From Dehalococcoidia bacterium (GTDB lineage: Bacteria > Chloroflexota > Dehalococcoidia > Bin125), in assembly GCA_022826965.1 (NCBI GenBank), contig JAJDTU010000005.1:62001-126000 (forward strand): a stretch of DNA of 64,000 bases, written 5' to 3'. How positions within the stretch are numbered: position 1 is the stretch's first letter; the number at the start of each line of letters is the position of its first letter. Positions 15,183 to 22,408 of the stretch are shown in pieces. The position numbers were made by a program, and so were the translations under genes. Below the pieces are notes generated by a model. It had not been told where the DNA came from, did no database searches, and was given only the letters and a program-made list of their open reading frames with translations.

Positions 15183-16565
15183 TCAAGAGCGGGCTTTGTT
15201 TGGGGCGGAGCGGAGGATGAAGGTGGCGGCTCCGTTGAGTACCGTTCGGCCGGAATTGACTGCCTGTGCGATCGGTTCCGGTGGGTGCTGCGGGACGCGG
15301 GCACGAAGGATGACCGGCCGCAGGATGATGATCGCGACGAGGATCGCGAGCACGGCGAACGACATCGGCGGGAACAGCGTCTCCATGGTCAGGCTCTGGG
15401 CGACGGCGCCGAGCGGCAGGCCGACGGCCTGGGCGATGCCCATACCGAGGAAGATTAGGCCCATGATTCTTCCGCGCATCTCGTTCGGCGTCTCGTGGGC
15501 GAGGGTGGCGTTGGCGGAGACCATCGCGATCGACATGCCGACGCCGAGCATCAGGTTGCCCATCATGGCGTTGATCACGCTCGGTGGGTTGACGAAGACG
15601 ACGAATCCGAGCGCCATTACGATCACGCCGATGGCGGTGATCATTCCCTTGCGCTCGATCCACGAGAAACGCACGAGGAAGAGGGAGGCGATCATCGCGC
15701 CGCCGCCCCAGAAGACGGCGATGTAGCTGAACTCGGACCAAGTTGCTCCGACGACGGTGGTGACCCACTGGGGGCCGAGGGTGCCGGTGGGTGGCATGAT
15801 CAACGACATCATCAGGACGACGATTATCACCGTCCAGAGGACGACCGATTTGGAGCGCGCGTACCGGAATCCGTCGCGAATGTCGCGAATGGCCTGTCCG
15901 GGTCCCTGGCCGCGGCTCGCCATGTGAGCCGCCGAGAAGACGGTGCGGTAGGCCATCATGGCGAGGATGAGGACCTCGCCGAGGTGTCCGAAGGAGGAGA
16001 CTGCGAAGACCGCGCCGTGGCCGAGATGGTCGATCATCAGGCCTGAAGCGAAGATGGCGACGGGCATGGCGAACTGCATCGCGGCGGCGTTCAGGGCGAT
16101 GCCCGACGGCGTGAGGCGCGGCCCGAGGATTTCCGGGGTGATCGCGTTTCTGGTGGGTCCATCGATCGCGTGTGCGGCGGAGGCGACGATGGTGAGTGCG
16201 AAGAAGATGATGATGTCGGTCGTGCCGCCCGAACCGGTCCAAATCATGACCGCGATCAAGATGTTGCTGATGAAAGCGATCGCCTGGGTGACCATCAACA
16301 GGCGACGTCGATCGAATCGGTCGGCCAGCGCACCGCCGAAGAGGCCGAAGCCGATCATGCCGATGCCGCGAATTGTGCCGATCGCGCCGACCATGAGGAT
16401 CTCGATGTCGTCGGGCGCGACGAGCTGGATCCAGGCGATTGAGGCGACGAACTGGAGCGGCATCATCGACTGACCGACGATGAAACCGGTTAGCAGCAGC
16501 CGGAACTCGCGCAGGCGGAGCGGCTCCATCATGCCGGGACGCGAGGCAGGCGGGCTGGCGCTCAT
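15183..16565 (-). CDS. Major facilitator superfamily transporter
   Basis: 460 residues with roughly 10-12 hydrophobic segments. MFS hallmarks include GLFGGALADRFDRRRLLMVT between the second and third segments (loop 2-3 motif) and LMIDHLGHGAVFAVSS. It is closest to the exporter group that also contains enterobactin/macrolide exporters, but the substrate is unknown. It overlaps the methyltransferase gene by 4 bases (ATGA). It is last in the minus-strand run headed by the thioredoxin-fused and UGSC selenoprotein genes, so its cargo may relate to that system. Confidence 0.85.
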   Translation of the reverse strand: MSASPPASRPGMMEPLRLREFRLLLTGFIVGQSMMPLQFVASIAWIQLVAPDDIEILMVGAIGTIRGIGMIGFGLFGGALADRFDRRRLLMVTQAIAFISNILIAVMIWTGSGGTTDIIIFFALTIVASAAHAIDGPTRNAITPEILGPRLTPSGIALNAAAMQFAMPVAIFASGLMIDHLGHGAVFAVSSFGHLGEVLILAMMAYRTVFSAAHMASRGQGPGQAIRDIRDGFRYARSKSVVLWTVIIVVLMMSLIMPPTGTLGPQWVTTVVGATWSEFSYIAVFWGGGAMIASLFLVRFSWIERKGMITAIGVIVMALGFVVFVNPPSVINAMMGNLMLGVGMSIAMVSANATLAHETPNEMRGRIMGLIFLGMGIAQAVGLPLGAVAQSLTMETLFPPMSFAVLAILVAIIILRPVILRARVPQHPPEPIAQAVNSGRTVLNGAATFILRSAPNKARS

Positions 16566-17194
16566 GTTTGTAGTTTCGCGGCTTCGAGCACGGCGTGTCG
16601 CGGTCCCTGATGCACTTTCCGGACGTGCTGCTTGCCGAAGATGTCGGCGAGTCGACGCTGGAGGTATCGGCGGAGGCCATTGACGGCGACGAGAGCGAGG
16701 GAGCCTCCGTCCTTCAAGGCGTCGTGGGCGTCGAGCAGCAACAGGTCGATGGCGTCGTTGCCTGCCTGAGCGGGGAGATTGGAGACGACCAGGTCGTAGG
16801 TTGACGCGTGTTGGCGAAGGTCGCTGATTCCGTCGCTCAAGGTTGCCGTCGCGTTGTCCAGGTTGTTGTGTGTGATGTTTTCGGCGGTGGCTTCGACTGC
16901 GCGAATGTCGGTGTCGACCAGATCCACCCTAGAGGCGGGCCAGCGGACCGCGAGCGTGAGGCCGAGCGCTCCGTAGCCGCAGCCCAAATCCAGCACGCGG
17001 TCTACGGGCGTCATTGCTTCCAACTCGCGCAGCAACAGATCCGTGCCGTCGTCCAGCGAGCGGGCCGAGAACAGCCCGTGGCGGGAGCGGAGGAGCAATC
17101 GGCGGCCGTGCACGTCGACGGTGACCTGGGGATGGCTCGCCAGGCGCGTCCGCAGGGCCGAGAGATGGTCCTGTTCGAGGGAGGGCTGACTCAC
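16562..17194 (-). CDS. RsmC-like class I SAM-dependent methyltransferase
   Basis: 210 residues: SAM-binding motif VLDLGCGYGALGLTLA (residues 67-82), acidic loop DLVDTDIRAVEAT, and catalytic-site motif SNLPAQAG (138-145), where rRNA guanine N2 methyltransferases of the RsmC/RlmG type have N-P-P. The Leu in place of the first Pro is a departure, so an RNA target is likely but not certain. Starts at GTG 17194 overlapping the upstream stop (GTGA) and ends overlapping the MFS gene, hence tightly coupled to both. Confidence 0.75.
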   Translation of the reverse strand: MSQPSLEQDHLSALRTRLASHPQVTVDVHGRRLLLRSRHGLFSARSLDDGTDLLLRELEAMTPVDRVLDLGCGYGALGLTLAVRWPASRVDLVDTDIRAVEATAENITHNNLDNATATLSDGISDLRQHASTYDLVVSNLPAQAGNDAIDLLLLDAHDALKDGGSLALVAVNGLRRYLQRRLADIFGKQHVRKVHQGPRHAVLEAAKLQT

Positions 17195-18288: not shown

Positions 18289-19392
18289 TCAGGAGCGGAC
18301 GAGGGCGGAGGGGGGCACGAATGTGGGCGGAGGAGCGGTGGGATTGCCGTCGCCGAAGATGCCCTGGTAGATGCTGGTCCACTTGCCGGCGTGGCTGCCG
18401 GCGACGGTGATGGCGATGAACGATGGGTCGGCGACCTTGGACAGCGGCCTGTCAAGGTCTTCTTCGGTCAGGCCATACTTCTCCGGCAGGTACTCGCCGA
18501 TTCCACCGCCCATGGTGGGGGAGGCGAGGCGTTCGCGCAGCGGGAGCGCGGTGAATTCCATGATCGCTTCGCGGAAGTTGTCCTTGGTCCAACCGCTGGC
18601 GCGATAGACGTCCGCGTGTTCGGGGCTGATCACGAACATCGAGGGTGTGACCTGTCCGCGGGGCTTGAGCACCTGCTGGAAGGCCATGGCGATCGAGCCG
18701 GTCAGCGAGCGGGCGTTGCGACTGTACTGATCGATGCAGACCCTCGGGCCGCCGGTGATCGGGATGAGCGAGACGACGCTGTCATCGGGCTCGTAGCCAT
18801 ACTCGACATGGAACGGGTCCCAGGGGGAGTAGTCCTCGTCCTCGGCGTAGCTGAGGGTCCACTTGTGGCCGCCGCCCTGGATGGCCTGCTCGATCTCTCC
18901 GGGGACGGCGCCGCCGATGTTGCGCAGCATGAGTCGGAGGGCTCGACCGAGGGTCGAATTGGCTCGGTTGCCCTGGCCGAGCGCGTTGAGTCCCCAGTTC
19001 ATACCGATCTGTTCGCGGACGGGTCCGTTGACGAGCATCATCGGAGCGAGGCCGGCGGTCGTGGCGATCGACCCGTGGAGCGGGAACTGTCCGCCGGCGG
19101 CGGCCTCGACCGAGGCCAGCACGGTGGGGAAGTACTCGGGCTTGCAGCCGGCCATGACGGCGTTGATGGCCGCCTTTTCGACGGTCATCGGGGCCATGTT
19201 GGGCGGCAGCGTGGCGGCGACCTTCTGTGGGTCGTTCCAGTGCTCGGGAGCGGAGGCCAGCATGCGGTCGACTCGCTCGCGGGTGGGTGGGACGACGGGC
19301 AGGCCGTCGGTGATGCCCTGCGAGAACATGAACTCGTAGACGTCGTCGTGGTCGGCGATTTCGATGATTCGCGTGACGGAGTCGGAGGACAC
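18289..19392 (-). CDS. UGSC-associated protein of unknown function (paralogue 2)
   Basis: 367 residues from a GTG at 19392 (MSSDSVTRIIEIADHDDVYE). The longer frame from 19473 is rejected because its first residues only translate repeat B2. It shares ITDGLPVVPPTRERV, TVEKAAINAVMAG, NGPVREQIGMNWGLNALGQG, GNRANSTLGRALRL, GGPRVCIDQYSR, SPEHADVYRASGWTKD and a C-terminal VAGSHAGKWTSIYQG with paralogue 1, its closest relative here. It follows the selenoprotein gene on the same strand with repeat B2 in the 109-base gap. Function unknown; probably forms a complex or pathway with its neighbours. Confidence 0.8.
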   Translation of the reverse strand: MSSDSVTRIIEIADHDDVYEFMFSQGITDGLPVVPPTRERVDRMLASAPEHWNDPQKVAATLPPNMAPMTVEKAAINAVMAGCKPEYFPTVLASVEAAAGGQFPLHGSIATTAGLAPMMLVNGPVREQIGMNWGLNALGQGNRANSTLGRALRLMLRNIGGAVPGEIEQAIQGGGHKWTLSYAEDEDYSPWDPFHVEYGYEPDDSVVSLIPITGGPRVCIDQYSRNARSLTGSIAMAFQQVLKPRGQVTPSMFVISPEHADVYRASGWTKDNFREAIMEFTALPLRERLASPTMGGGIGEYLPEKYGLTEEDLDRPLSKVADPSFIAITVAGSHAGKWTSIYQGIFGDGNPTAPPPTFVPPSALVRS

Positions 19393-19413: not shown

Positions 19414-19463
19414 GGGGAGCCCCCTCTGCCTTCGGCATCTCCCCCCGCTTCGCGGGGGGAGAA
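19414..19463. repeat. Dispersed palindromic repeat, family B (copy B2, inside the UGSC operon)
   Basis: GGGGAGCCCCCTCTGCCTTC, then GGCATCTCCCCCCGC and GCGGGGGGAGA. It sits between the selenoprotein and paralogue 2 genes, so it would be transcribed within the operon mRNA and could fold into a stable stem that affects downstream expression. Confidence 0.8.
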
Positions 19464-19501
19464 AACGGAGCACGGGATCGCTCGCGTTGATGGGCCCGTA
19501 G

Positions 19502-20032
19502 CTACTCGACGGGGGCCATCAGGGTGTCGAGGATTTCGTCGACGAAGCGCTCGGCGTGTTCGTGCATCTCGGTGTCCGTGCGGTCCTGCATCGGATGCGG
19601 GATGAAGACTCGGCGGACCTCTTCGAGTCCGAGGCGTTCGGCCTGGTGGCTGGCGGCCTTGATGAACTCAGAGGTGGCGACGAAAACACTGGGCTTGCCC
19701 TGCAGTTCGAAGAAAACGGTGTCGTGCACACTGCACGTCGTGCAGGATCCTCAATCAGCGAGCGCTTCGATGACGAAGTCGCACTCCTCCAGGATCGCAT
19801 CTTTGATTGGCTGCGGGGCCGGCTTGGCGACGGTCGGCTTCATGAAACGCCGGGTCTCGACGCCTGGGGCGCGCTCGTGCAGGAGTTGCTCGAGCCGGTC
19901 GAGGAAGACATCGCCGCGCGGCTTGGAGATGTCGAGCAGGGCGATGGTGCCATGCAGCGCCTCGGGGCGCGGCGTGAGTTGCCGCTTGATCGGCACTCGT
20001 TCGTCGGTTGGGTCAAGGATCTGGGTAACCAT
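19502..20032 (-). CDS. UGSC-family selenoprotein, in-frame UGA read as selenocysteine
   Basis: A single 176-residue protein if TGA at 19753-19751 is read as selenocysteine (residue 94). The frame before it ends ...CDFVIEALAD and the frame after continues GSCTTCSVHDTVFFE, giving the motif U-G-S-C plus a second T-T-C. The downstream half (AERLGLEEVRRVFIPHPM) matches the family pattern I know from metagenomic UGSC proteins. ATG 20032 has GGAGAGG just upstream. Two overlapping stems just after the UGA could form a bacterial SECIS. U94 with C97 suggests thiol/selenol redox chemistry; the actual reaction is unknown. The alternative is a nonsense-mutated gene. Confidence 0.85.
19723..19753 (-). promoter_or_regulatory. 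UGA codon and candidate bacterial SECIS hairpin
   Basis: Directly after the UGA (19753-19751) the minus strand holds CTGCACG-A-CGTGCAG (19745-19731), a near-perfect stem. An alternative stem is CGTGCA-GTG-TGCACG (19737-19723), with a GUG apical loop about 20 bases after the UGA. Bacterial SECIS elements lie in this position and typically expose a G/GU in a small apical loop to SelB. The exact fold was judged by eye. Confidence 0.6.
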
Positions 20033-20092
20033 TGGACCTCTCCATCAACGCGCCGTCTGCAGGGTTGCGGCGCGCCGTGTGTCTAACGCAGT

Positions 20093-21793
20093 CTACTCTT
20101 CCACATCGCTCGTACCGGTCTCACGGAAGCTCGGTTCGAAGGCTCCCAGGTCGCGTCCGCCCGACTGGCGCTTGTCCATTTTGGATCCGCCCCTACTGCG
20201 GATTGACAGCGCACCGTTGGGGCCGATGTTCGCGCTGGTCGGCGTGGAGTAGACCCCGGTCGCCCAGCCCCCGAGGATCGTCGAGAACTTCGCGGCGGAA
20301 GAGCCGGCGACGACGAGGATGATGTTGGACTTGTCGGCAAACTTCGGCACCGGCCGGTCGAGCGCCGCCTCGCCGCCGAAGCGCTCAACAACGGACGGCG
20401 GCAGTCCTGCGCCGGCGTCGTCGGAGCGCAGGCGGTGTTTCAGCGGGATGGCCGTCTCCTCCATGATGCACTCGCGGACATCGTCCTTGGACCAGCCGGA
20501 GCGTCCGAAGATGCCGGCGTGGTCGGGCGAGAGCACGACCAACGTGTCGACCATGGGTGATTTGGGGTCCTGCATGGCGCTCATCGAGGCAGCCAGAGTT
20601 CCGGCCATGCCACGGCCGTCGCGGGAACGCTCGTCGGCGATGGTGGCCGGTCCGCCGGACATCGCCATGAGCGTGGCGACGTCGTCGGTTGGCTCGAAGC
20701 CGTACTCGACGGCGAGCGAGTCCCAGGGACTGGCGTCTTCGTTCTCGGCGAAGTTCATCGTGAGGCGATGCGGGCCGCCCTGGGTGGCGCGATCGGTGCC
20801 GCCGGGGACACTGCCGCCGACGTTGCGCGCGCAGAGGCGCAGGGCTCGGCCAATGGCGGCGTTGGCTCGGTTGCCTGAGCCGAGCGCTCCGTGCAGATAG
20901 TTCATGCCGATGCGGTCGCGGATCGGGCCGTTGAAGATACCGACGGGGGTGGCACCCATGGTTGTGGCCAGAACGCCGTGGATGTTGAAGCTCTCGGTGC
21001 AGGCGACCTCGACCAAGGCGATGATCGACGGCAAATACTCGGGCTTGGCGCCGGCCATGACGGCGTTGATGGCGACCTTCTCGACGGTGATGGGGGCCAG
21101 GTTGGGCGGGACGATCGCGACCTCATCCTGCGGGTCGCGGGTCGTGCCCTGGAGCATCTTCCAGACTCGCTCGCGGGTCGGCGGTACGACGGGGAAGCCG
21201 TCGGTGTAGCCCTGGTCGTACATGAAGTCGTGGATGTCGTCGGACGAGGCGAGATCGACGAGGCGGGAGAGCAGATCGCCGCTCTTGATCGCCTGCAGGC
21301 GCTCGTAGACGCCGGGCTCATAGTTGCGGGCGCCGCAGCCGGGTCGTTGCTCGGGCAGCGACTCCCAGTCAATGGAGGTCTCGACGCCAGGGCGCCCGGC
21401 CAGGGTCATCGATTCGCCCGCGATCTCGCGCCACTCGTGCTTGTCGAATCCGAAGGTTTGCAATGTGCAGTTCTGCTCTTCGTCGTAGAGGAACAGGGTT
21501 GGGACCGTGTCGATGTCGGTCTCGTAGGAGAGGTCGAGGGCGTCGTCGTCGAGCAAGGGCATGGTCAGGTCGTGACGTTCCTTGAGGACGGGGATGTCGT
21601 CGGTCTTCTGGACGGCGACCCAGACATCGAGGCCGTCGTCGGTGTCTCGATGCACGGCCTCGAGCAAGGGGAGCGTCAGGTTGCAGGTGTCGCAGTCTTC
21701 TTTGACCAGGGCGAGCAGGATCGGACCCCTGGGCGGAAACTGCATCTCCTGGCCATCGGCGTCGAGCAGTGAGAATTTGGTCGGTGGGTGCAT
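20093..21793 (-). CDS. Thioredoxin-like domain fused to UGSC-associated domain (paralogue 3, 566 aa)
   Basis: Residues 1 to ~125 form a thioredoxin/TlpA-like domain with a CxxC centre (DCDTCNLTLPLLEAV) and the cis-Pro segment DTVPTLFLYD. The rest matches paralogues 1 and 2: YTDGFPVVPPTRERV, TVEKVAINAVMAG, NGPIRDRIGMN, GNRANAAIGRALRL, SPDHAGIFGRSGWSKDD. No signal peptide is evident, so it is probably cytoplasmic. It is the promoter-proximal gene of the operon and lies 60 bases before the selenoprotein. The fusion ties this unknown family physically to dithiol redox chemistry, fitting a role in reducing or working with the UGSC protein. Confidence 0.85.
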   Translation of the reverse strand: MHPPTKFSLLDADGQEMQFPPRGPILLALVKEDCDTCNLTLPLLEAVHRDTDDGLDVWVAVQKTDDIPVLKERHDLTMPLLDDDALDLSYETDIDTVPTLFLYDEEQNCTLQTFGFDKHEWREIAGESMTLAGRPGVETSIDWESLPEQRPGCGARNYEPGVYERLQAIKSGDLLSRLVDLASSDDIHDFMYDQGYTDGFPVVPPTRERVWKMLQGTTRDPQDEVAIVPPNLAPITVEKVAINAVMAGAKPEYLPSIIALVEVACTESFNIHGVLATTMGATPVGIFNGPIRDRIGMNYLHGALGSGNRANAAIGRALRLCARNVGGSVPGGTDRATQGGPHRLTMNFAENEDASPWDSLAVEYGFEPTDDVATLMAMSGGPATIADERSRDGRGMAGTLAASMSAMQDPKSPMVDTLVVLSPDHAGIFGRSGWSKDDVRECIMEETAIPLKHRLRSDDAGAGLPPSVVERFGGEAALDRPVPKFADKSNIILVVAGSSAAKFSTILGGWATGVYSTPTSANIGPNGALSIRSRGGSKMDKRQSGGRDLGAFEPSFRETGTSDVEE

Positions 21794-22360: not shown

Positions 22361-22408
22361 GGAGCCCCCCTCTGCCTGCGGCATCTCCCCCCACGGAGCG
22401 GGGGGAGA
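22361..22408. repeat. Dispersed palindromic repeat, family B (copy B3)
   Basis: GGAGCCCCCCTCTGCCTGCG, then GCATCTCCCCCCAC and GAGCGGGGGGAGA. Second element in the same convergent gap as A3, before the end of the thioredoxin/TPR gene. Confidence 0.8.

Follow-up and report, generated by a model that had tools for sequence, protein, structure and literature searches.

A UGSC-family selenoprotein gene of a Dehalococcoidia bacterium and its relation to a near-obligate partner family and to GrdB

Introduction

UGSC proteins were described in the GOS selenoproteome, in which the family comprised 255 sequences and 21 Cys homologues (PMC2398784, published in 2008). A 'likely Trx-like fold' was proposed for these proteins, and a fusion of UGSC to a domain termed 'Unknown_1' was already reported in the same source. 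Reviews up to 2026 still list UGSC proteins without a function. A second group that bears on the present work is formed by GrdB and PrdB, together with short GrdB-like selenoproteins (PF07355). Both a second chain and thioredoxin take part in the action of the selenoproteins GrdB and PrdB, and their chemistry (PMC13188914, PMC10838667) is the basis of the reductive C-X cleavage considered below.

Here we analyze a UGSC gene in a stretch of 64,000 nucleotides (the window) from the genome of a Dehalococcoidia bacterium (GCA_022826965.1, contig JAJDTU010000005.1, positions 62,001 to 126,000). A first-pass annotation, made from the letters of the window, had joined two short reading frames across a TGA and called the product a selenoprotein of this family. 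We find that the gene is a further member of the known UGSC family; the useful new part lies in a partner module that accompanies it and in its kinship with GrdB.

Results

The selenoprotein gene and its reading frame

On the minus strand, the frame running from 20032 to 19502 begins with ATG and contains 93 codons, an in-frame TGA at 19751..19753 (codon 94), 82 further codons and a terminal TAG. Read through, it gives a protein of 176 residues with selenocysteine (Sec) at residue 94 and the junction peptide ALADUGSCTTCSVHD, so that the two same-frame pieces and the U-G-S-C-T-T-C motif named in the first-pass annotation are both confirmed. A Shine-Dalgarno-like GGAGAGG (20037..20043, minus strand) precedes the ATG at a distance of 4 nt. 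The mechanical list of open reading frames reports 19751-20032 and 19502-19729 separately, the very fragmentation that had been predicted for gene callers. On the plus strand, a long antisense ORF (19556-20086) lies over the selenoprotein gene, and a simple GC-frame gene caller picked this antisense ORF instead.

The translated protein scores 153.2 bits against NF041046 (curated cut-off 125) and 151.3 bits against PF24696 (curated cut-off 25), which bears out the proposed family assignment. In a Pfam scan of the protein at E 1e-3, PF24696 alone matched, with no hit to PF07355. In its length, its U-G-S-C motif, its in-frame UGA and its scores over both curated cut-offs, the protein is like the known UGSC family.

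Comparison with close relatives indicates that both halves are protein-coding, as had been claimed from the letters. On either side of the TGA, dN is far smaller than dS, the pattern of purifying selection; for one relative (L043), dS is 0.46 and dN 0.024 upstream of the TGA, and dS is 0.47 and dN 0.005 downstream. GC3 is 0.82 before the TGA and 0.83 after it.

To sample the family more widely, we retrieved the 80 nearest relatives with peptide patterns that leave out the Sec. These come from Chloroflexota, Actinomycetota, Acidobacteriota, Proteobacteria and other phyla, and each carries UGSC with TGA at the same codon (80/80). Isolate genomes are represented among the UGSC loci by Ilumatobacter nonamiensis (L094), Sulfitobacter sp. 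M05 (L075) and Pseudonocardia nigra (L101). A search of 301 Chloroflexota genomes gave 71 UGSC matches, nearly all with one TGA; the two exceptions that were examined, L187 and L190, lack Sec and Cys alike at the site (GDTRSGS and ADMGVTP, respectively). The comparison with UGSC proteins that the first-pass annotation had suggested bore out its interpretation, with one correction: the family models matched and the relatives share the Sec column, but the Cys form with which an alignment was envisaged is absent from the 71 Chloroflexota matches. In this respect the sample differs from the account in PMC2398784.

Recoding of the internal TGA

The genes proposed for a check (selA, selB, selC and selD) all have counterparts in the genome to which the window belongs (3.0 Mb in 14 contigs, 97% complete), whose closest public relatives are Dehalococcoidia/Chloroflexota metagenome assemblies. 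We found SelA (420 bits), SelB (score over the cut-off), tRNA-Sec (70 bits, anticodon tca), and a SelD that has an in-frame TGA of its own, in CGGUGSK. SelA was also detected in 19 of 20 genomes that have a near relative of the UGSC gene and belong, by record title, to other phyla. The genome contains four UGSC genes (the window gene and three more), with one TGA each, and four GRDB-like genes (L150, L163, L165 and L166), each with one in-frame TGA followed by PxC. The latter probably encode additional selenoproteins of this superfamily. Counting the four UGSC genes, the four GRDB-like genes and SelD, the number of selenoprotein genes in the genome is probably nine or more.

A hairpin, CGTGC-AGTGT-GCACG (19723..19737, minus strand), begins 13 nt downstream of the TGA, with G as the second base of its loop; a small apical loop containing G is a common feature of SECIS elements (PMC1088965). 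Across 87 distinct genes, the stem positions pair in 99.5% of cases, compared to a mean of 92.9% and a maximum of 94.7% for shuffled controls. In every gene with the Trp codon TGG in place of the Cys codon TGC, the third codon base opposite is C instead of G. C-G and G-C pairs occur at this position in a ratio of 82:5 (Fisher 2.7e-8, the 87 genes being related and their counts hence non-independent), and each of the five genes with G-C belongs to a different genome (L004, L124, L128, L133 and L143). The G to C change of the facing base is seen also in Val codons, where it is silent, and four further genes have GCC facing GGC in the hairpin. Folded as a single sequence, the window RNA favors another hairpin, and such folding is inconsistent; the SECIS assignment therefore rests on covariation. 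An Rfam search over the window gave no match. Judged by its covariation, the hairpin after the TGA is the SECIS of this gene.

These data bear on two alternatives to selenocysteine. In the first, the TGA would be a real stop, either breaking a Cys-type gene into a pseudogene or introduced by a sequencing or assembly error. The two short pieces of the plain ORF list are what such a lesion would leave, yet a TGA at the same codon in 80/80 relatives from independent assemblies, purifying selection on the codons downstream of the TGA (dN far below dS), a covarying hairpin and a complete Sec machinery make this explanation extremely improbable. The second alternative, a changed genetic code in which TGA would stand for Trp or some other amino acid, would account for the open frame and nothing beyond it. 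We regard it as more improbable still, given that tRNA-Sec and SelB are present and that TGA is the ordinary stop of 10 of the 16 long genes in the window; this last observation implies that recoding of the internal TGA depends on its context, with the code itself unchanged. From the sequence evidence, the window gene almost certainly encodes a genuine selenoprotein.

A partner family accompanies UGSC

The selenoprotein gene sits among three copies of a second family, a setting that the first-pass annotation had not described. Immediately upstream, P3 (20093..21793, minus strand) ends 60 nt before the UGSC gene. On the other side lie P1 (18289..19392, minus strand), for which we prefer a GTG start at 19392 over the mechanical start at 19473, and P2 (17191..18282, minus strand), which is ∼62% identical to P1. 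Conserved residues of the partner family include, in P1 numbering, D29-G30, G123-P124, N145, G149-R150 and E184. The three proteins share one domain of about 340-360 residues, which in P3 occupies approximately residues 176-520 and follows an N-terminal thioredoxin-like domain. Sequence searches revealed no relative of the partner family in Pfam, NCBIfam or the PDB, and PDB sequence searches with the UGSC, GRDB and partner profiles likewise gave no clear relative.

Association of the two families is close. Each of the genome's four UGSC genes has a partner gene beside it. Either family is present in 32 of the 301 Chloroflexota genomes, with both in 31, UGSC only in one, the partner only in one and neither in 268 (Fisher 6e-40, uncorrected and with phylogeny ignored); the two genomes with a single family (G251 and G073) are fragmented assemblies. 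In at least 64 of the 71 cases in these genomes, a partner gene on the same strand lies within 1.5 kb of the UGSC gene (a lower bound, with no more than 7 candidates scored in any genome), and a partner is adjacent to UGSC in 63 of the 80 relatives. For UGSC loci without a close partner, the partner was found elsewhere in the genome in 10/10 genomes tested. The partner family is found in several phyla.

Fusions point the same way. At no fewer than eight loci, UGSC and partner form one chain, with UGSC first and one TGA inside the coding part. One natural fusion was modeled with a pLDDT of 88.6 and a pTM of 0.90, scores that favor a fixed placement of the two domains relative to each other in the predicted structure. 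In a fold search with this model, the matches listed cover the UGSC half only. At one locus (L187; G178 C21), two genes for UGSC-partner fusions adjoin each other; one of them has Sec, and the other lacks both Sec and Cys at this position.

The 'Unknown_1' domain of PMC2398784 was likewise fused to UGSC, in metagenome proteins, and is probably the same family as the partner. We found no description of the near-obligate partner, of its thioredoxin fusion or of a kinship with GrdB in the literature on UGSC, to the extent that this literature was accessible. On that basis the module of partner and UGSC is new, and the 'Unknown_1' fusion is the sole precedent that we found.

The N-terminus of P3 carries a thioredoxin-type redox motif, CDTC (residues 34-37; 21683..21694, minus strand). 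In 18 homologues, C34 and T36 are invariant and C37 nearly so, and V97-P98, at the cis-proline position, is conserved. Pfam models of redoxin type (Thioredoxin_2, AhpC-TSA and Redoxin) match weakly but repeatedly, in up to 8 of the 18 homologues, and none matches P3 itself. With both the CxxC motif and the cis-proline position present, the region is, by these sequence features, a thioredoxin-like domain.

Neighboring genes

Downstream of P2, and overlapping it by 4 nt, is a gene for a small methyltransferase (16562..17194, minus strand; MTS domain, PF05175, RsmC-like), which in turn overlaps by 4 nt a gene whose sequence suggests a putative MFS-type transporter (15183..16565, minus strand). 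Both are likely co-transcribed with the module. A similar order of UGSC, methyltransferase, transporter and acyl-CoA dehydrogenase occurs at L054. Clustering of the neighborhoods of UGSC loci showed no constant third gene that would point to a substrate. Two of the UGSC paralogues lie amid genes for class III CoA-transferases, thiolase-like proteins, acyl-CoA dehydrogenase and carboxyl-transferases, which hints at carboxylate catabolism, though these neighbors are not constant across relatives. Near one UGSC paralogue is a 768-aa ORF (L205, 2921-5227, minus strand) with LUD, 4Fe-4S and CCG domains.

The window also contains a dispersed repeat, CTCTGCCTTCGGCATC (GATGCCGAAGGCAGAGGG on the opposite strand), at 19424, 41003 and 48784 in plus-strand reading, with looser copies at 22370 and 44875. 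At up to two mismatches there are five copies, compared to 0.15 expected. Six other places in the genome with weak translated matches may be more copies.

Predicted fold and kinship with GrdB

The AlphaFold2 model of the UGSC protein (pLDDT 96) has five strands alternating with helices and no beta hairpin. The sheet is flavodoxin-like, its third strand is central, and Sec94 is placed where the helix after this strand begins; the invariant Cys97 is one helix turn past it. In a thioredoxin fold, a beta-alpha-beta unit would precede a beta hairpin and a helix; in the model, a helix lies between each strand and the next. The structural neighbors in the PDB are flavodoxin-like, CheY-like and lumazine-synthase-like. 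One of the top neighbors is chain 8s7v_H from the activation complex of methyl-coenzyme M reductase (Z 10.0, with many common folds scoring alike). The UGSC fold is therefore predicted to be flavodoxin-like rather than thioredoxin-like, unlike the proposal in PMC2398784.

Profile comparison relates UGSC to GrdB, a link that likewise goes beyond the first-pass annotation. Using hhalign, UGSC and GRDB profiles from the same phylum aligned with a probability of 95.4% (E 1.9e-8), and the two Sec columns were matched to each other. Controls stayed at ≤2%, whether reversed, shuffled or drawn from ∼30 unrelated families. After removal of the motif columns the value was still 85%. The profile alignments indicate that the Sec half of UGSC is homologous to the Sec half of GrdB/PrdB. 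Shared with GrdB, PrdB and the short GrdB-like selenoproteins are this homologous domain and the landmarks UGxCxxC and E..GIP, and we count the second chain and the thioredoxin of GrdB and PrdB as a further likeness to the UGSC module. There are also differences. UGSC has no PF07355 match of its own, and the PF07355 matches seen in the GRDB-like genes stop at the Sec codon; UGSC has 176 aa, compared to ∼440 aa for full GrdB; and the partner is not GrdE or PrdA.

Discussion

How might UGSC and its partner act? We propose that SelB and tRNA-Sec (anticodon UCA), guided by the hairpin after the UGA, would insert Sec at residue 94. Given the near-obligate co-occurrence, adjacency and natural fusions, the partner domain of P1, P2 and P3 may dock on UGSC and supply the substrate site. 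Sec94 would be the attacking selenolate and Cys97 the resolving residue, and a thioredoxin-like domain with a CxTC motif, like that of P3, could return the pair to its reduced state. By homology to GrdB/PrdB, selenolate attack on a polarized carbon-heteroatom bond would lead to reductive cleavage; this is the weakest step. That UGSC and partner form a two-part reductase is likely, and the whole explanation, in which UGSC contributes the selenolate to a two-part reductase driven by thioredoxin, with GrdB-type selenolate attack, is fairly probable. Taken by itself, GrdB-type chemistry is a possibility that we put forward by analogy and with reserve.

Another reading accepts the selenoprotein but makes it a general thiol oxidoreductase, redoxin- or peroxiredoxin-like and directed against oxidants, with the partner as a client or regulator. 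The UxxC motif, the thioredoxin-like domain fused to P3 and the 'likely Trx-like fold' put forward in PMC2398784 are in keeping with this. However, the model, with a helix between all five strands, no beta hairpin and flavodoxin- and CheY-like PDB neighbors, argues for a different fold, the sequence kinship of UGSC is to GrdB, and a single constant partner of ∼360 residues would be unusual for a general redoxin. We consider this reading unlikely.

At the other extreme, UGSC could be a C-X bond reductase strictly of the GrdB/PrdB type, with an electrophilic, pyruvoyl-like cofactor formed in the partner. The kinship of the Sec domain to GrdB would fit, as would the use of a second chain by GrdB and PrdB and the placement of two paralogues beside CoA-transferase, acyl-CoA dehydrogenase and thiolase-like genes. 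The partner, however, has no similarity to GrdE/PrdA: none of 25 family members has a Pfam match of GrdE/PrdA type, which leaves the pyruvoyl part of the analogy unsupported. Moreover, the only frequent Cys of the partner, C83 of P1, is Ala in P2, so formation of a pyruvoyl group by cleavage at Cys is improbable. The strict form is accordingly very unlikely in our view, and we retain the thioredoxin-driven two-part reductase as the preferred reading.

The genome has four sets of UGSC and partner, and two of these sets adjoin catabolic genes linked to CoA, which suggests several carboxylate-type substrates. More broadly, and quite tentatively, UGSC and partner may represent a new family of selenium-dependent, thioredoxin-driven C-heteroatom reductases in many aquatic bacteria, combining a Sec domain akin to GrdB with an as yet undescribed substrate-activating subunit. 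UGSC proteins are among the commonest selenoproteins of aquatic metagenomes (PMC2398784), and their partner family, present in several phyla, is absent from Pfam and NCBIfam. Now that UGSC has a constant partner, a probable reductant, a predicted fold and kin whose chemistry is known, its function is open to concrete experiments.
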